The position numbers and the translations under genes were made by a program. The notes beneath the pieces are model-generated. The model made no database searches. It had not been told where the DNA came from and saw nothing but the letters and a program-made list of their open reading frames with translations. Shown here one piece after another: positions 7,764 to 22,055 of a stretch of DNA of 64,000 nucleotides (positions within the stretch are counted from its first letter, which is position 1; each line of letters starts with the position of its first letter). Source of the stretch: Ancylobacter amanitiformis (GTDB lineage: Bacteria > Pseudomonadota > Alphaproteobacteria > Rhizobiales > Xanthobacteraceae); the NCBI RefSeq assembly GCF_030814815.1, contig NZ_JAUSVR010000017.1:1-64000 (forward strand), given 5' to 3'.

Positions 7764-8756
7764 TCAGCGCCCGGTGCGCCGGATGAAGGCGCCGAAGGCG
7801 CGCGGCCCGTCCGCCACCGCGATGTCGTCGACAACCTTCAGCGTCGCGGTGTCGATCACGCTCAGCGTATTGGCTTCCCAGTTGGCGACATAGACGAAGG
7901 CCCCGTCCTCGCTCGCCGCGATGCCTTCGGGATAGTCGCCGACCGGAAGGGTGGCGAGGGTCGCCAGCGTCGCCACATCGAACACGCTGACCGTGGAATC
8001 ATACTGGTCGGTGACGAAGGCGCGGCCGCCGGCCAGCGCCACCGCATAGGGGCGCTGGCCCACCTTCACCGTGGCGATCACCTTGCGGGCGGCGATGTCG
8101 ATCACGCTCACATCATTCGAGGCCACATTGGCGGAGTAGGCGCGCCGGCCCGCCGCATCGATGGTCACGCCGAACGGGCGCGCGCCGACAGGGATCGAGG
8201 CGAGGCGGGTGAGGGTCAATGTGTCGATGACGCTCACCGCATCGGAAACGCGGTCGGCGGAGAGCAGCAGCGCGCCGTCGGGCGTGACCGCGAGGCCCGA
8301 GGGGGAGTTGCCCACCTTCACCTCCCCGGTGACGGCGCCGCTCGCCGCGTCCACGGCGACGATGCGGTGCTGGTACCAGTCCGCGACATAGGCGGGGCTG
8401 CCGGACGGGTGCACCGCGACGCCGAGCGGCCCGCCGCCGACCTCGACGCGGTGGGTAATGGTGCGGCTGGCGGCATCCACGATGGTGAGCGCCTTGCCAT
8501 CCGGCGAGGTGACGAAGGCGCGGGCGCCATCCGGCGACACGGCGATGCCCGCCGGCTTGCCGGGAATGGGCAGTGTGGCGACGACCTTCCGGCTCGCGAG
8601 ATCGACAATGGAGAGCATTTCCGCTGGCTGCGAGGTGATGAAGGCCTCGTCCGCCCGGGCGGGGAGGGTACCAGAAAGGGCAAGCGTCGCCATGAGCACG
8701 ACCAGAAGCCCTCTTCCCGAGGGCGTGGGCCGGGTGAGGGGGCCGGCGCCATCCAT
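7764..8756 (-). CDS. Exported YVTN-type beta-propeller protein
   Basis: Seven-bladed propeller of ~40-residue repeats (such as GKPAGIAVSPDGARAFVTS, SVIDTLTLTRLASIPVG, VYVANWEANTLSVID), with a signal peptide ending at PARA-DEAF. Such periplasmic proteins often accompany PQQ- or cytochrome-based oxidation systems, but no dehydrogenase is nearby, so the role is unknown. The SRPBCC gene lies just upstream on the same strand. The start is uncertain: the frame is open to ATG 8843, but codons 5' of the signal core are mostly palindromic-repeat DNA (8709-8823). ATG 8756 gives a plausible signal peptide; ATG 8693 is a shorter option. Confidence 0.8.
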   Translation of the reverse strand: MDGAGPLTRPTPSGRGLLVVLMATLALSGTLPARADEAFITSQPAEMLSIVDLASRKVVATLPIPGKPAGIAVSPDGARAFVTSPDGKALTIVDAASRTITHRVEVGGGPLGVAVHPSGSPAYVADWYQHRIVAVDAASGAVTGEVKVGNSPSGLAVTPDGALLLSADRVSDAVSVIDTLTLTRLASIPVGARPFGVTIDAAGRRAYSANVASNDVSVIDIAARKVIATVKVGQRPYAVALAGGRAFVTDQYDSTVSVFDVATLATLATLPVGDYPEGIAASEDGAFVYVANWEANTLSVIDTATLKVVDDIAVADGPRAFGAFIRRTGR

Positions 8757-8823
8757 GGCCCTGCGGCGGATCGGCGGACGGCGTTCCCCCTCACCCCAAC
8801 CCTCTCCCCGCCGGGGAGAGGGA
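8709..8823. repeat. Palindromic CCCTCTCCCC-type repeat pair
   Basis: Two arms of the dispersed repeat seen also at 12505, 19101 and 19975. The arm at 8785-8823 has CCCTCACCCCAACCCTCTCC followed by the complementary GGGGAGAGGG. The arm at 8709-8745 has CCCTCTTCCC then GGGTGAGGGGG. It overlaps the 5' end of the beta-propeller reading frame and may have replaced the original start region. Confidence 0.75.
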
Positions 8824-8846
8824 GCGAGGGCCGGCATGCGCACCGC

Positions 8847-11517: not shown

Positions 11518-12492
11518 ATGGCCCTCGAACTGACCCTTGGTTTAACCCTCGTCGCGCTGCTGTTCGAGGCCGCTTTAGGCTATCCGCCGCTTTTGCTCAA
11601 GGCGATCGGCCATCCCGTCATGTGGGCGGGCCGGCTGATCGGCGGGCTCGACGCCACGATCAACCGTGACAGCGACAGCCCCCGCACGCGCCGGCTTGCC
11701 GGCGTGGCGGCGCTGGCGATCCTCCTGCTGGTGGCGCTGGCGGCGGGTGCCGGCGTGCAGAACCTGTTGCTGCGACTGCCGTTCGGCCTACTGCTCGTGG
11801 CTTTGGTGGCCTCCTCGCTCTTCGCCCAGCGCAGCCTTTATGATCACGTGGCGCGCGTGGCGGACGGGCTCGACGCCAGCCTGGAAGCGGGGCGCGCGGC
11901 GGTGTCGCATATTGTCGGGCGCGACCCGGAGCGGCTGGACGAGGCGGGTGTGGCGCGTGCCGCCATCGAGAGCCTGGCGGAGAATTTCTCCGACGGCATC
12001 GTCGCGCCTGCCCTGTGGATGGTGGTCGGCGGGCTGCCGGGCGGGGTCGCCTACAAGATGGTGAACACCGCCGACAGCATGATCGGCCATCGCGACAGCC
12101 GCCACCTTCACTTCGGCTGGGCGGCGGCGCGGTTCGATGATCTGGTCAACCTGCCGGCCTCGCGCCTCGCGGGGGTGCTGATGGTGGCCGGGGCGGTATT
12201 CGTACGCGGCGCCTCGCCCCTCCGTGCGTGGCGGGCCATGCTGCGCGACGCCGCCAAGCACCGTTCGCCCAATGCCGGCTGGCCGGAGGCGGCGCTGGCC
12301 GGCGCGCTCGGCATCGGCATTGCCGGCCCGCGCTATTATGGCGGCAAGCTTTCCACCGATGGGGTGATGGGCGAGGGCGGCCGGCGCGACTGCACCGCCG
12401 ACGATATCCGCCGCTCGCTCGCGCTCTATCGCGCGGCCGATGGCGTGATGCTCGCCCTGCTGGCGGCCGGCGCGCTGGCGATGGCGCTGTGA
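11518..12492 (+). CDS. cobD: Adenosylcobinamide-phosphate synthase CobD (CbiB)
   Basis: Integral membrane enzyme that attaches aminopropanol phosphate to adenosylcobyric acid to form adenosylcobinamide phosphate. The 324-residue protein has the CbiB arrangement: a hydrophobic N-terminus (LTLVALLFEAALGYPP), GRLIGGLDATIN, the conserved ESLAENFSDGIVAPALW, YKMVNTADSMIGH, HFGWAAARFDDLVNLPASR, and the C-terminal YYGGKLSTD. It is divergent from recQ and convergent with cobQ, separated from the latter by a palindromic repeat. Confidence 0.95.
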   Translation: MALELTLGLTLVALLFEAALGYPPLLLKAIGHPVMWAGRLIGGLDATINRDSDSPRTRRLAGVAALAILLLVALAAGAGVQNLLLRLPFGLLLVALVASSLFAQRSLYDHVARVADGLDASLEAGRAAVSHIVGRDPERLDEAGVARAAIESLAENFSDGIVAPALWMVVGGLPGGVAYKMVNTADSMIGHRDSRHLHFGWAAARFDDLVNLPASRLAGVLMVAGAVFVRGASPLRAWRAMLRDAAKHRSPNAGWPEAALAGALGIGIAGPRYYGGKLSTDGVMGEGGRRDCTADDIRRSLALYRAADGVMLALLAAGALAMAL

Positions 12493-12504: not shown

Positions 12505-12618
12505 TCCCCCTCTCCCCCACGGGGAGAGGGCTGGGGTGAGGGGATCACCAACACTCGGCCATCGCGTCGCCCCTCACCGACCCGCGTCGCGGGCCCCCTC
12601 TCCCCGATGGCGAGAGGG
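12505..12618. repeat. Intergenic palindromic repeat between cobD and cobQ
   Basis: Two inverted arms: 12505-12544 (CCCCTCTCCCCCACGGGGAG, then GGGCTGGGGTGAGGGG) and 12570-12618 (CCCCTCACCGACCC, then CCCCCTCTCCCC and GAGAGGG). Each arm folds by itself and the arms are roughly inverse to each other. Lying between convergent genes, it could act as a terminator, but it is the same dispersed element found inside cobN. Confidence 0.8.
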
Positions 12619-15702: not shown

Positions 15703-16434
15703 TCAGGCCGCGGGCGCTGCGAGGCGCGGGCGCAGCCAGCCGGCGAGGCCGCCGAGCAGCGTCCAGAACACGAAGCTCACCGCCACGCTCGCCACCACGA
15801 AATTGTGGTGCAGAGCCTCCGGAATCGCCGTCTCGAAGCTCTCGGGTTGCGGCGCGCCGATCAGCTGGGGCGCGACGATGAGCGCGACGCCGGTCAATGC
15901 GAGCAGGGGCGAGCGGCCGAAGGCGAGGAGCGCGAGACCGCCGGCGGTCGCGGCTGCCGTGCCCACCCACCAGATCTGGCGGGCGGCGAGGTCGCCGGCG
16001 GGCATGGCGGGCAACTCGGGAGGCAGGCCGAGCCCCGGCGCCAGAGTGAAGACGGCAAAGCCCGCCAGCCCCCAGATCACGCCCTGATGCCAGTTCTGCA
16101 ACCCGCCGGCGATCTCGCTCGCCGCCACCAGCAGCAGCGCGAAGCCGAAGCCGGTGAGCACGGTGAACAGCAGCGTGAGGCCGTTGCGCTCCAGCCCGTC
16201 GGCCGGTGCCCAGGCCTCGTCGTCATGCTCGTGCGCAGCCGATTCCTGCGCGCCGGCCGTATGCGCGGCGGCATCCGCATGGGAATGCGCGGGCGCGGCG
16301 GCTTCCGCCTGCTCGAAGGTCTCGGCCTTGAGGATCAGCGGGACGGTGGTGAGGAGATGGAGGGCGGCGCCCACCAGCCCGGTGCCGATACCGGCAAGCG
16401 CGGCGACGAACAGAATCGTCCTGAAAAGCGACAT
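15703..16434 (-). CDS. cbtA: CbtA cobalt transporter membrane subunit
   Basis: 243-residue membrane protein with about five to six hydrophobic segments (FRTILFVAALAGIGTGLVGAA, LTLLFTVLTGFGFALLLVA, and a C-terminal FVFWTLLGGLAGWLRPR). A His/Asp/Glu-rich extramembrane stretch (HSHADAAAH and HEHDDEAW, ~residues 45-75) probably binds cobalt. CbtA is the predicted B12-regulated cobalt permease that pairs with CbtB. ATG 16434 has a GGAACCTCC-like region upstream and directly begins the first helix. It lies 19 bp after cbtB, under the minus-strand riboswitch. Confidence 0.92.
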   Translation of the reverse strand: MSLFRTILFVAALAGIGTGLVGAALHLLTTVPLILKAETFEQAEAAAPAHSHADAAAHTAGAQESAAHEHDDEAWAPADGLERNGLTLLFTVLTGFGFALLLVAASEIAGGLQNWHQGVIWGLAGFAVFTLAPGLGLPPELPAMPAGDLAARQIWWVGTAAATAGGLALLAFGRSPLLALTGVALIVAPQLIGAPQPESFETAIPEALHHNFVVASVAVSFVFWTLLGGLAGWLRPRLAAPAA

Positions 16435-16639: not shown

Positions 16640-16683
16640 GACAGTCTCCTTTGGCCCTCCACCCGAGGGCCGTTGCGGTTTCC

Positions 16684-16867
16684 GTCGCCGGCCGGTCTCC
16701 TGGCTCGCGGGTCGCGGCCCGGCCTCCGCCTTCCCGGCGCGGGCGCCAGTGGCTGATGGAGGAGGGCTCGCCGCTCACAGTTGCGGGGGCAGCCGCGGAT
16801 TCGGCGGATCTCTCCGCCCCACCGCGTTCCCGTCTTGCGTCCCGTGCGTCTCACGGGAACCGACGAC
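16684..16867 (-). promoter_or_regulatory. Cobalamin riboswitch controlling cbtBA
   Basis: On the minus strand the leader contains the conserved core GCTGCCCCCGCAACTGTGAG, then CCACTGG, GGGAAGGCGG, GCGACCCGCG and the B12 box GAGCCAGGAGACCGGCC. The outer ends can pair as P1 (GTCGTCGG with CCGGCGAC, one G-U). It lies 44 nt before cbtB, so translational or early transcriptional control of cbtBA is expected on adenosylcobalamin binding. Boundaries are from the P1 pairing. Confidence 0.92.
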
Positions 16868-16874
16868 GCTCGCG

Positions 16875-16902
16875 ACTATAGCCGCCAATCGCCTCGCCGC
16901 AA
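16875..16902 (-). promoter_or_regulatory. Candidate sigma70-type promoter for the cbtB riboswitch
   Basis: On the minus strand, TTGCGG and TATAGT are separated by 16 bp, with TATAGT about 7 bp before the predicted riboswitch 5' end. Position relative to the riboswitch supports it; it was not otherwise tested. Confidence 0.5.
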
Positions 16903-16938: not shown

Positions 16939-16967
16939 TTGACATTCCCTGCGGACGCTCCTTAAGT
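16939..16967 (+). promoter_or_regulatory. Candidate sigma70-type promoter for the cobW riboswitch
   Basis: A perfect -35 TTGACA and a -10-like TTAAGT are separated by 17 bp. The predicted transcription start would fall at the first base of the plus-strand riboswitch P1 stem. It stands back-to-back with the minus-strand promoter in a ~107-bp spacer. Confidence 0.55.
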
Positions 16968-16974
16968 GGCCTCG

Positions 16975-17167
16975 ACCATCGGTTCTCTCTTTCCGGAGAG
17001 GGACGAAAAGGGAATGCGGTGCGGAGCGGGCCTTCAGGCGGCGTGTTCCAATTCCGCGGCTGCCCCCGCAACTGTAAGCGGCGAGCCCGTCTCCATCAGC
17101 CACTGGCCTCGTGCCGGGAAGGCGGAGACCGGGCCGTGACCCGCGAGCCAGGAGACCTGCCGACGGT
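16975..17167 (+). promoter_or_regulatory. Cobalamin riboswitch controlling cobW-cobN operon
   Basis: Contains AAAAGGGAATGCGGTG, the core GGCTGCCCCCGCAACTGTAA, CCACTGG, GGGAAGGCGG, GTGACCCGCG and the B12 box GAGCCAGGAGACCTGCC. P1 forms between ACCATCGG (16975) and CCGACGGT (17160), one mismatch. It ends 129 nt before cobW. The core is nearly identical to the divergent minus-strand copy, suggesting a shared origin. Confidence 0.94.
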
Positions 17168-17296
17168 TCGGTCTTGTCCGCCGGCGGGGTGCCCGGCAGC
17201 AGGCAGAGCGGCGCTCCACCGGCGCGGCTTCGCGCGGAATTCCGTTCCGCGACCGGCGCATCCCATGAACCTCTTGGGCTTTCGTGGAGACGCCGC

Positions 17297-18364: not shown

Positions 18365-18374
18365 GCCAACCCGT

Positions 18375-18480
18375 GATCCCGAACGGCCGACAGGCCGATC
18401 CGGGATCGCCCGCCCGATCGCGAATGGCAGCGGTTCCCGACTCTGCCCGCCGCTTCGGCCGGGATGACGATTACAGGAGC
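18375..18480. repeat. REP-like imperfect palindrome between cobW and cobN
   Basis: The spacer holds GATCCCGAACGGCC and GGCCGATCCGGGATC as inverse arms, then CTTCGGCCGGGATGACGA, a tail style common in alphaproteobacterial dispersed repeats. A similar GGGGATGACG stretch lies before modB at ~44700. It may act as an intra-operon processing or attenuation element; this is not shown. Confidence 0.4.
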
Positions 18481-18491
18481 GCCGACGCCGC

Positions 18492-21400
18492 ATGCACATT
18501 CTCACCACCACTTCCTCCAGCCTCGACGACCTCGTCGAGCCGGTCGATCTCGGCCAGACGCCGGGCGAGGTGGTGGTGCTGTCCTTCACCGACAGCGATC
18601 TGGTGGGGCTGGCCTCGGCGCGGGCACATGCGGAGGCGGAGCAACGGGCGGAGGGCACTGGCCGCGAGGGACTGCCGAGCCTGCGTCTCGTGAACCTGCG
18701 GGATCTACGGCACCCGATGTCGGTCGATCTGTGGATCGACCGCAGCGCGGTGCAGGCGCGCGTCATCGTTGTCCGCCTGCTCGGCGGGCTCGACTGGTGG
18801 CGCTACGGCGTGGAGCGGCTGGCGGATGTGGCGCGCGCGCGGGGCATCCGCCTCGCCTTGCTGCCGGGCGAGGACCGCGACGACCCGCGCCTTGCCGCCG
18901 CCTCGACCCTGCCGGGCGAGGAACTGGACGCGCTGCTCGGCTATTTCCGCGCCGGTGGCCCGGCGAACCTGCGCGCGCTGCTGCGACGGCTGGCCCGGCA
19001 TGCGGGGCACGCCCTCGACGCCCCCCCGCCGCAGCCGGTGCCGTTGGCGGGATTTTATGAATGGGCGGGTGAAGCCCCTTCGCGGCCGTTTCGCACCGCT
19101 TCCCCCTCACCCCGTCCTCTCCCCGAGGCGGAGAGGGCTTTCGCGAATCGGGCCGCCTTCTCCACTCCCTCTCCCTTGGGAAAGAGGATGGAATATTCCG
19201 GCGCTGGCTCTGCCGAAGCCCTCTCCCCAGCGGGGCGAGGGGTGGGTGAGGGCGAACCCGCTCGCCCCGCCATTCCCGTCATCTTTTACCGCTCCATGTG
19301 GCTGGCGGGGGATACCGCGCCGGTCGAGGCGCTGTGCGCCGCGCTGGCCGCGCGCGGGCTCGCGCCGCACCCGATCTTCGTCGCCTCGCTGCGTGAGCCG
19401 GCCTCCGTCGCCTTCCTGCGCGCCGCGCTGGTGGAGATGAACCCGGCGGCCATCGTCACGCTCACCGCCTTCGCCGCCGCCGATCCGGGCGAGGAGACCG
19501 TGCTCGACGCGCCCGGCGTGCCGGTGCTGCAGGCCATCCTTGCCACCACGCCGCGCGCGGCCTGGGCGGAGGGCGTGCGCGGGCTGGTGAGCGCGGATCT
19601 CGCCATGCATGTGGTGCTGCCCGAGCTTGACGGGCGTGTGCTGGCCGGCGCGCTCTCCTTCAAGGCGCCGGCCGACGTCGCCGTTGTGCCGGGCTTCACC
19701 GCGCTGGTCAACCGGCCCGAGCCCGACCGGGTGGAGCAGGTGGCCGACCGGGTGGCCGCGCTGGTCCGGCTGCAGGCCATGCCGCGTGGCGCCCGTCGCA
19801 TCGCCGTGCTCATGCCGGAATATGCTGGCGCGCCCGGCCGCACCGGCTGGGCGGTGGGGCTCGACGTGCCGGCGAGCGTTCTGGCGCTGATGGCGGACCT
19901 CAGCACGGCGGGCTATCGCGTGGAGGGCGCCCCGGGGAATGAGCGGGCGCTGCTGGACGCGGTGCAGGGAAGGCTCTCTCTCCCCGGCGGGGAGAGGGAT
20001 GGGGTGAGGGGCGCTCTCCGCACCACACCGGCCATCCCCGTCACCCAGCCCTCTCCCTACGGAGGAGAGGGCTTTGCCGACGATCAGGCTCTCTCCCTCA
20101 CCGATTACCGCGCCCATCTGGCGACGCTGCCGCTCGCTTCCGTTGCGGCTGTTCATGCGGCGTGGGGGGAGCCGGAGGACGATCCGGACCTCTTCGCGGA
20201 CGCCTTCCGCTTCCGCGCGGCCCGCTTCGGCCACCTCACCGTTGCCATCGCGCCCGATCGCGGCGCACGCGCCGAGCGGCGGGCGCAATATCATGACCCG
20301 GCGCTGCCGCCGCGCCATGGGCTGCTCGCCTTCGGCCTGTGGCTGCGGCGCGAGGCGGAGGCGCTGGTGCATATGGGCGCGCATGGCACGCTGGAATGGC
20401 TGCCGGGAAAGCATGTGGCGCTTGCACGCGGCTGTTTCCCCGAACTGGTGCTGGGCAGCCTGCCGGTGGCCTATCCCTTCATCGTCTCCAATCCCGGCGA
20501 GGCGGCGCAGGCCAAGCGCCGCATCGCCGCCGTCACGCTCGGCCACCTGCCGCCGCCCACGCTGGAGGCCGGGCTGACTGGCGAGGGGCGCGAGCTGGAG
20601 CGGCTGGTCGATGAATATGCGCAGGCCGACGGGCTCGACCGCCGCCGCCGCGAGCGGCTGGCGCGGCTGATCGTGGAGGAGACCACCCGCACCGGCTTTG
20701 CCCGTGACGCCGGGCTCTCCACGGATGCGACGGCGGACGAGGCGCTGAAGCAGATCGACGCCTTTCTGTGCGACATCAAGGAGATGCGCCTCAAGGACGG
20801 CTTCCATGTCTATGGTCGCGGCCCGTGCGGAGCGGCGGAACGGGGCGGGCTGCTCGCCGCGCTGGACGGGCGACGCGTGGCGGCGGGCCCGGCCGGGGCG
20901 CCGGGGCGCGGGCGTACCGATGTGATGCCGACCGGGCGCAACCTGTTCGCCAGCGATCCGCGCGCCCTGCCGACGGCGACCGCGATGGATCTCGGCCGGC
21001 TGGCGGCCGAGGAAGTGCTGCGCGCCTATGCGCAGGCGCATGGCGACTGGCCGCGCGCACTGGTGCTGGATCTGTGGGGCAGCGCCACGCTGCGCACCGG
21101 CGGCGAGGAGATGGCGCAAGGGCTGGCGCTGATCGGCGCGCGCCCGCTCTGGGACCCCGCCACCGGCCGGGTGACGGGGGTCGAGGTGCTGCCGACCGCT
21201 GTGCTGGGGCGCCCGCGTGTCGACGTCACGTTCCGCATTTCCGGGCTGTTCCGCGACCTGTTCCCCGCGCAGATCGCGCTGCTCGACGCCGCGCTGCGGG
21301 CGGTGGCGCGGCGCGAGGAGACGGCGGACGAGAACCCCTTGCGCGCGCATGGCGAGGGCGCGCCGCGCATCTTCGGCAGTGCGCCGGGCGCCTATGGCGC

Positions 21401-22055
21401 GGGGCTCGACCGGGCCGGCGAGGGCATCGCGCCCGAGGCTCTGGGCGAGGCCTATCTCGCCAGCGCCTCGCACGCCTATGGCGGTGCGGAAGGTTCGGCG
21501 TTTGAGGCCGGCGCGGCCTTCGCGGCGCGGGTGGCGGCGGCGGACCTGCTGGTGCACGGCGCCGATGATCCCGGCCGCGACCTGCTGGAAGGCGATGCCG
21601 ACCTCGCCTTCATCGGCGGTTTCGCGGCGGCGGCCGAACGGTTGGGGCGCATGCCCGATCTGGTCGTGCTCGATACGTCCGATCCCGCCCGCCCCATCGC
21701 CCGCCCGCTCGGCCAGGCCATCGCCCGCCTCGTGCGCGGGCGCACCAACCCGCACTATATCGCGGGGCTGATGCGGCACGGTCCGCGCGGGGCGGCCGAG
21801 ATCGCCGAGACCGTGGACCGGCTGATCGGCTTCGCGGAAGCCACCCGCGTGGTGCCCGGCGCACTCATCGACGCGCTGCATGAAGCCTATGTCGGCGACG
21901 AGAGCGTGCGCGATTTCCTGCGCGCCGCCTCGCCGGAGGCCGCGCGCTTCGTTGCCGCCCGTTTCGAGCGGGCGCGGCTGAACGGCCTCTGGCATCCCCG
22001 CCGCAACGATATCGGCGCGGATCTCGCCACCCTTTCCGGGGAGGCGGCGGAATGA
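18492..22055 (+). CDS. cobN: Cobaltochelatase subunit CobN with two repeat-derived insertions
   Basis: Large subunit of the aerobic ATP-dependent CobNST chelatase that puts cobalt into hydrogenobyrinic acid a,c-diamide. 1187 residues with the CobN/Mg-chelatase H fold: HMGAHGTLEWLPGKHVAL near the middle, FHVYGRGPCG, MPTGRNLFASDPRALP, VLDLWGSATLRTGGE, TFRISGLFRDLFPAQI, and C-terminal NPHYIAGLMRHG. The frame is intact, but residues ~204-254 and ~495-526 are translated palindromic-repeat DNA, low in complexity and unlike CobN; the conserved sequence resumes directly after each. The stop overlaps the cobG start by 4 nt. Activity is probably kept, since the inserts fall in variable connectors, but this is inference. 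Confidence 0.94.
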   Translation: MHILTTTSSSLDDLVEPVDLGQTPGEVVVLSFTDSDLVGLASARAHAEAEQRAEGTGREGLPSLRLVNLRDLRHPMSVDLWIDRSAVQARVIVVRLLGGLDWWRYGVERLADVARARGIRLALLPGEDRDDPRLAAASTLPGEELDALLGYFRAGGPANLRALLRRLARHAGHALDAPPPQPVPLAGFYEWAGEAPSRPFRTASPSPRPLPEAERAFANRAAFSTPSPLGKRMEYSGAGSAEALSPAGRGVGEGEPARPAIPVIFYRSMWLAGDTAPVEALCAALAARGLAPHPIFVASLREPASVAFLRAALVEMNPAAIVTLTAFAAADPGEETVLDAPGVPVLQAILATTPRAAWAEGVRGLVSADLAMHVVLPELDGRVLAGALSFKAPADVAVVPGFTALVNRPEPDRVEQVADRVAALVRLQAMPRGARRIAVLMPEYAGAPGRTGWAVGLDVPASVLALMADLSTAGYRVEGAPGNERALLDAVQGRLSLPGGERDGVRGALRTTPAIPVTQPSPYGGEGFADDQALSLTDYRAHLATLPLASVAAVHAAWGEPEDDPDLFADAFRFRAARFGHLTVAIAPDRGARAERRAQYHDPALPPRHGLLAFGLWLRREAEALVHMGAHGTLEWLPGKHVALARGCFPELVLGSLPVAYPFIVSNPGEAAQAKRRIAAVTLGHLPPPTLEAGLTGEGRELERLVDEYAQADGLDRRRRERLARLIVEETTRTGFARDAGLSTDATADEALKQIDAFLCDIKEMRLKDGFHVYGRGPCGAAERGGLLAALDGRRVAAGPAGAPGRGRTDVMPTGRNLFASDPRALPTATAMDLGRLAAEEVLRAYAQAHGDWPRALVLDLWGSATLRTGGEEMAQGLALIGARPLWDPATGRVTGVEVLPTAVLGRPRVDVTFRISGLFRDLFPAQIALLDAALRAVARREETADENPLRAHGEGAPRIFGSAPGAYGAGLDRAGEGIAPEALGEAYLASASHAYGGAEGSAFEAGAAFAARVAAADLLVHGADDPGRDLLEGDADLAFIGGFAAAAERLGRMPDLVVLDTSDPARPIARPLGQAIARLVRGRTNPHYIAGLMRHGPRGAAEIAETVDRLIGFAEATRVVPGALIDALHEAYVGDESVRDFLRAASPEAARFVAARFERARLNGLWHPRRNDIGADLATLSGEAAE
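19101..19253. repeat. Palindromic repeat inserted in frame in cobN, copy 1
   Basis: Arm one at 19101-19138 reads TCCCCCTCACCCCGTCCTCT then CCCCGAGGCGGAGAGGG. A middle hairpin-like stretch follows at 19164-19190. Arm two at 19219-19253 reads CCCTCTCCCCAGCGGGGCGA then GGGGTGGGTGAGGG, roughly the reverse complement of arm one. This is the same family as the intergenic copies at 8709 and 12505. Confidence 0.85.
19975..20070. repeat. Palindromic repeat inserted in frame in cobN, copy 2
   Basis: Arm one at 19975-20010 (CTCTCCCCGGCGGGGAGAGG then GATGGGGTGAGGG) and arm two at 20036-20070 (CCCCGTCACCCAGCCCTCTC then CCTACGGAGGAGAGGG) are inverse to each other around a 25-bp spacer. Orientation is opposite to copy 1. 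Confidence 0.85.

Follow-up and report, generated by a model that had tools for sequence, protein, structure and literature searches.

Palindromic repeats of several families occupy two linkers of the cobaltochelatase subunit CobN across the genus Ancylobacter

Introduction

Translated palindromic repeats are best known from the obligate intracellular genus Rickettsia. Intergenic repeats are familiar in other Alphaproteobacteria and include RIME, Bru-RS, and CIR (rhizobia, Brucella, Caulobacter), of which RIME comprises two palindromes in about 100 bp. By general description, the elements reported here can be likened to these as alphaproteobacterial repeats.

Rickettsia palindromic elements (RPEs) are described, in the portions of PMC10969869, PMC2996958, and PMC3733652 available to us, as palindromes of ∼150 bp that lie in frame in unrelated genes at positions presumed compatible with the fold of the protein. 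The GTAG/CGTC REPs of free-living bacteria (Di Nocera et al. 2013; PMC3733652) are mostly intergenic, and some lie in frame in genes. The available text of that paper names the DNA repair genes uvrABCD and a DNA ligase of O. terrae among the hosts, reports different REPs at about one recB position in two Xanthomonas species, and identifies two Rickettsia conorii elements, RPE-6 and RPE-4, as CGTC-1 and CGTC-4, respectively; a supplement legend places "S. novella" among the REP-rich species. REPINs and BIMEs (PMC3116915, PMC2817692), as far as the available text describes them, are inverted two-hairpin units with a spacer, present in many dispersed copies and moved by RAYT transposases.

The window analyzed here is a 64,000-nucleotide stretch of Ancylobacter amanitiformis. 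From its letters, an initial annotation proposed that two palindromic repeats are translated in frame inside cobN, and likened them to RPEs. Starkeya novella, presumably the species meant by the abbreviation above, is a close relative. We find that repeats of several families occupy the same two CobN linkers across this genus, which is the main phenomenon and is invisible from the window alone.

Results

Two family A inserts are read through in the window cobN.

The window CobN matched the CobN equivalog profile NF008973 with 1544 bits (cutoff, 1235), and cobN was the single match to a CobN query in its own genome (4.84 Mb in 44 contigs). A fold search of the PDB went no further than confirming the CobN/ChlH/dechelatase fold, and the TM scores over the whole chain were low. 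Two cobalamin riboswitches lie close together on opposite strands of the window (16673-16879, minus; 16963-17178, plus).

Table 1. Coordinates of cobN and of the repeat elements discussed in the text; positions without a prefix are those of the window.
Feature	Position	Strand	Remarks
cobN, cobaltochelatase subunit CobN	18492-22055	+	1187 aa, no stop, both inserts read through
Site 1, family A compound	19101-19253	+	about three half-elements, decayed; residues ∼204-254
Site 2, family A two-hairpin element	19975-20070	+	residues ∼495-527
Family A element	8709-8822		near the start of a mechanical minus-strand ORF (7764-8843), inside its span
Family A, full length (∼111 bp)	12508-12618		flanked by a plus-strand ORF ending at 12492 and by cobQ (minus strand, ends 12738)
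Family E element	18370-18469		cobW-cobN spacer of the window
uvrC copy of family A	G000:C1:636066-636177 (L105)		in frame; Pfam UvrC RNase H domain
ATP-dependent DNA ligase copy of family A	G000:C9:27072-27236 (L143)		in frame

Repeat half-sites in cobN cluster at 19104-19241 and 19976-20071, no more than 12 bases from where the initial annotation had put them, and residue 204 of CobN begins at 19101. As it had also proposed, the open frame continues through both repeats, with normal CobN sequence back after each. Both copies were predicted to fold better than all of 200 shuffled sequences (z, −4.7 and −4.2). The site 1 insert is compound and decayed and holds no single clean family A copy. 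In the closest relative found, A. tetraedralis (91% identity to the window CobN), site 1 spans 18 residues versus 77 in the window (+59), and site 2 spans 34 versus 66 (+32). The gains proposed by the initial annotation were about 51 and 32 residues.

Family A is built on the hairpin CCCTCTCCCC-NNN-GGGGAGAGGG, which is flanked on one side by a tag of the CTCACCCC type; its units read CTCACCCCAACCCTCTCCCC..., and a typical element of ∼110 bp has two such hairpins as paired units. CCCTCTCCCC occurs 72 + 65 times in the host genome versus 21 + 15 times for the reversed control. With up to three mismatches allowed, the hairpin occurs 101 times per strand versus 1 and 1 for the control, the matches on the two strands being mostly identical places because the hairpin is palindromic. 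The repeat is thus abundant in the genome and far from unique to cobN. Of the two further window copies, described by the initial annotation as lying between genes at 8709 and 12505, both exist; the latter is intergenic, and the status of the former depends on the true start of the ORF that spans it. Family A copies have on average 3.8 of the six frames open versus 3.5 of six in GC-matched random sequence, on which ground a special open-frame design was rejected. The translated copies are read in frames that differ between them.

Four repeat families are found at the same two sites across the genus.

CobN was present in all 30 genomes of the genus, identified from its named relatives as Ancylobacter in the GTDB sense, with coordinates used to match named to unnamed loci. 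Both sites could be read in 29. The exception was A. dichloromethanicus, with an empty site 1 and a family C element split by an assembly gap at site 2; it was excluded from the site counts and included in the copy number test below. In the record L066, an assembly gap of five N (L066:5315-5319) within a family C element of cobN makes the gene look broken. At least one element was found at the two sites in 21 of the 29 species, and no element was detected at either site in the remaining 8. By BLAST assignment, site 1 held family A in 13 species, A + B in 2, B in 3, C in 2, and none in 9; site 2 held A in 6, C in 5, B in 3, E in 3, B + C in 1, and none in 11. Each site held one family, except where two elements adjoin. 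Assignment by eye differed solely for A. gelatini, in which site 1 was called a decayed A element and site 2 was left undecided.

The families at the two linkers are therefore four: A, B (sub-types b, d, and f, with a CCGGGCTTGNCCCGG core), C, and E. The last three are themselves dispersed in many genomes of the genus. Copies of d, f, C, and E have common CGTCAT/CCTCAT-like ends, and the partial likeness of their ends may point to a distant relationship among families B, C, and E.

In 40 CobN rows from outside the genus, inspected by eye, the linkers are short and hold no recognized element, and none carried the residues of the window inserts. With the repeat also abundant elsewhere in the host genome, neither of the outcomes that the initial annotation had named as refuting occurred. 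In a family-level sample, 81 of the 149 genomes drawn gave a match, and 23 loci from other genera were read, some further matches with a gap at site 1 (e.g., G076) falling outside these 23. A long site 1 insert was found in two of the 23 loci, both of one genus, and a site 2 insert in none. The two inserts (L240 and L242, genus g14) are proline- and glycine-rich, repeat-like, and by eye unlike families A, B, C, and E.

Three Ancylobacter genomes (G007, G008, and G014; cob loci L025, L058, and L023) gave 0 to 2 pattern hits in total for families A, B, and C and lack CobN inserts. Nearly repeat-free genomes of this kind are useful for finding a mobilizer by its absence.

We consider it probable, at roughly 0.8, that REP/MITE-like palindromic elements have inserted into two unstructured CobN linkers that tolerate them, the linkers serving as revolving doors.

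The contents of the linkers have probably turned over within the genus.

Family identity was reconstructed (Fitch) on a tree of the CobN core from which the insert columns had been removed and in which some nodes are weak (supports, 48 to 53). Site 1 required 12 changes and site 2 required 15. When the labels were shuffled without regard to relatedness, the means were 14.05 and 16.32 changes, with 10.5% and 22.4% of shuffles as low. Inspection of the DNA by eye also revealed joined elements: in 501b and L006, the left half of an A element runs into b, and in L038, f runs into C. Site 2 of A. tetraedralis, which keeps GAGGGCTTCGC, is probably a deletion scar, as is site 1 of L021, where both ends of an A element are left (both judged by eye). 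Given the probable scar in A. tetraedralis, absence from the closest relative does not make the site 2 copy of the window new. With insert types found genus-wide as well, insertion in the window lineage alone was rejected.

The patchy distribution could also reflect old insertions redistributed by homologous recombination of cobN alleles between species, which we regard as possible, if doubtful. When trees were built from 603-bp flanks, changes at site 2 fell from 15 to 13 (1.7% of shuffles as low), so that allele exchange may explain part of the site 2 pattern. Moreover, the right-hand junction of element b at site 1 is common to four species in two clades (501b, rudongensis, polymorphus, and L006), where the element may derive from a single insertion. 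However, changes at site 1 remained at 12 on the flank tree, four families at two sites imply several insertions in any case, and the families in a species' CobN tend to be those abundant in its own genome. Specifically, genomes with a family in CobN had more pattern hits for it genome-wide (C, median of 231 versus 4, P = 0.0002; B, 86 versus 15, P = 0.02; A, 59.5 versus 15, P = 0.002), in a test that takes site states by eye for A, B, and C, ignores relatedness, and counts the CobN copies in. We continue to prefer the entry of elements into tolerant linkers as the principal explanation.

Coding copies are concentrated at few places.

The survey of coding copies covered family A alone, in 60 stretches around listed hits and the window, with 67 clusters in all, a few of them probably chance. 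Of these, five lay inside ORFs with gene-like codon usage on both sides, a lower bound for the genome. One of these, L120, was rejected as a coding copy, having no Pfam family and probably being an antisense ORF. Four of the 67 examined lie inside real genes: two in cobN, one in uvrC, and one in a gene for ATP-dependent DNA ligase. The UvrC RNase H match aligns 214 residues with a profile of 159 positions, and the linker that holds the insert is strongly variable in all 30 genomes, many with A-like remnants by eye. The ligase insert contains three tandem copies of a 48-bp unit; by eye, a clear family A insert is present at the same place in 8 of the 30 genomes, a half element or remnant in 2, and none in 20. 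A tag one base shorter (three C) occurs in 3 of 6 coding tags versus 1 of 28 others, and since the three short coding tags come from the one tandem duplication in the ligase, this is a mere hint of frame adjustment.

Across 19 named cob loci, some of which fall short of some genes, eight genes were located. Within them, cobN takes 22 clusters, each at one of the two sites, and cobG takes 1; cobW, cobH, cobI, cobO, cobP, and the gene at 15706 have none. Another 24 clusters lie outside the eight genes, often in the cobW-cobN spacer, a slot that holds an E, B, or C element in several Ancylobacter species other than that of the window. The cobG cluster is a family C element, open in frame, in a Xanthobacteraceae metagenome-assembled genome (L038:8178-8288).

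One reading of this concentration is that the sites are favored at the DNA level, beyond tolerance, by one common mobilizing system. The two CobN sites take 22 of the 23 clusters within the eight genes, the cobW-cobN spacer forms a third exchange slot, the ligase insert has a single position in the species that carry it, and the d, f, C, and E copies have similar ends. Against this, the sites match flexible or hypervariable linkers, as tolerance alone predicts, and another genus carries a different repeat-like insert at site 1. We judge such a preference unlikely and infer that tolerance, not a DNA target signal, accounts for the sites.

The inserts coincide with predicted flexible segments.

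In the AlphaFold2 model of the window CobN, pLDDT is below 50 at residues 196 to 254 and 496 to 528, coinciding with the inserts, and the flanks are mostly confident; a short helix is predicted at 212 to 221, within site 1. In the CobN of A. rudongensis, which carries B and C inserts, pLDDT is below 50 at 188 to 237 and 481 to 512. These low values may stem partly from the few aligned relatives at the inserts. In a solved CobN structure (9uk9), the two places span about nine residues each.

Pooled over nine species pairs sharing an element, hand-picked and partly overlapping, dN/dS was 0.89 in the inserts and 0.20 in the flanks. The synonymous difference was 0.117 in the inserts versus 0.236 in the flanks, which pure neutrality would not predict; possible causes are late insertion, copy-to-copy conversion, and a constraint that acts on the palindrome.

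Selection for the inserts, with mRNA hairpins or the linker peptide regulating CobN synthesis or assembly, would fit this lowered synonymous difference and the stable predicted folds of six translated copies (z, −2.3 to −9.8), of which E is the weakest (z, −2.3, with 4 of 200 shuffles as good). Nonetheless, no element was detected at either site in 8 of the 29 species, dN/dS is near 1, families replace one another, and probable deletion scars occur, all of which makes such a role distinctly improbable. Hardly credible is low-complexity expansion by slippage, which was rejected because elements of four families that match the inserts are dispersed elsewhere in the genomes, even though the tandem unit in the ligase indicates that local duplication happens.

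Discussion

If elements have entered tolerant linkers, as we propose, they would land or be copied genome-wide without a RAYT, and most insertions into genes would be lost again. Read-through would be possible where the length of the insert fits the frame; being GC-rich and ∼90 to 115 bp long, the elements, like any sequence of this kind, have several open frames among the six. A linker that is already flexible could take up ∼20 to 60 extra residues. Its contents would then be gained, lost by internal deletion, or joined or replaced among A, B, C, and E, and the family in a species' CobN would tend to be one abundant in its genome. The inserts are presumably translated, in a CobN that still functions.

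Family A resembles REPs and REPINs in having many dispersed, paired inverted palindromes that are mostly extragenic (5 of 67 clusters in scored ORFs before the rejection of L120). It differs in its mobilizer: PF01797 (Y1_Tnp) had no match in any of the 30 genus genomes, in a search whose control gave matches in 5 of 14, and mobilization by a RAYT was therefore rejected. We infer that the elements move by a non-RAYT process; the copying route could be another transposase or recombination or template switching at the hairpins.

In-frame REPs in genes of free-living bacteria are already in print (PMC3733652, as far as its available text goes), so that the phenomenon extends beyond Rickettsia-like bacteria, a point on which the initial annotation was incomplete. 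Those GTAG/CGTC REPs share with the Ancylobacter elements a small palindromic form, a mostly intergenic location, some in-frame copies, and repair genes as hosts. Here, in contrast, four families occupy two sites of one metabolic enzyme across a genus, and we found no mention of CobN in the available text of PMC3733652. Judged from that text, family A has neither a GTAG or CGTC (TGTC, CCTC) tag nor the AT-starting CGTC stem. A family B d copy (L032) reads CGTC, ATGGCCGGG, loop CTTGG, CCCGGCCAT, CCA, and so has the CGTC tag, AT stem start, short loop, and CCA tail given there for CGTC REPs; sub-type b starts differently. Identity of family B with CGTC-1 was rejected, since the d copy, with a stem of 9 bp and a loop of 5 bases, agrees with families 3 and 4 in the available text of PMC3733652. 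The claim is thus limited to the CGTC superfamily, which by description houses RPE-4 and RPE-6 and to which, on its sequence features, family B would belong.

The comparison with RPEs made by the initial annotation stands for in-frame insertion in a free-living alphaproteobacterium and does not by itself establish kinship of family A, which has no GTAG/CGTC tag. Both are dispersed palindromes inserted in frame in protein genes. In the RPE literature available to us, however, of the RPEs first reported, nearly half were genic, versus 4 of the 67 family A clusters examined; host lifestyle also differs, and family A is read in different frames. The window element would thus work like an RPE insertion, a likeness of process that does not itself imply membership.

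Among the literature matches listed, titles and abstracts mentioned no repeats in CobN and no exchange of families at one protein site, an absence that falls short of proof. No match listed described what is seen here, one enzyme in which the same two linkers hold several families across a genus. In Ancylobacter, which is free-living and has many species in culture, the process can be followed at species resolution, and elements appear to have been gained, lost, and joined and to have left scars. Two questions thereby become testable: by what route palindromic repeats lacking a RAYT move, and whether mobile DNA regularly enters proteins through flexible linkers. A wider proposal, which we offer tentatively and think rather unlikely, is that the linkers of CobN, uvrC, and the ligase, together with the cobW-cobN spacer, are recurrent integration slots of several palindromic families mobilized by one common, RAYT-independent alphaproteobacterial process. 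If this is true, orthologous linkers would record element activity naturally and would keep supplying new protein sequence.
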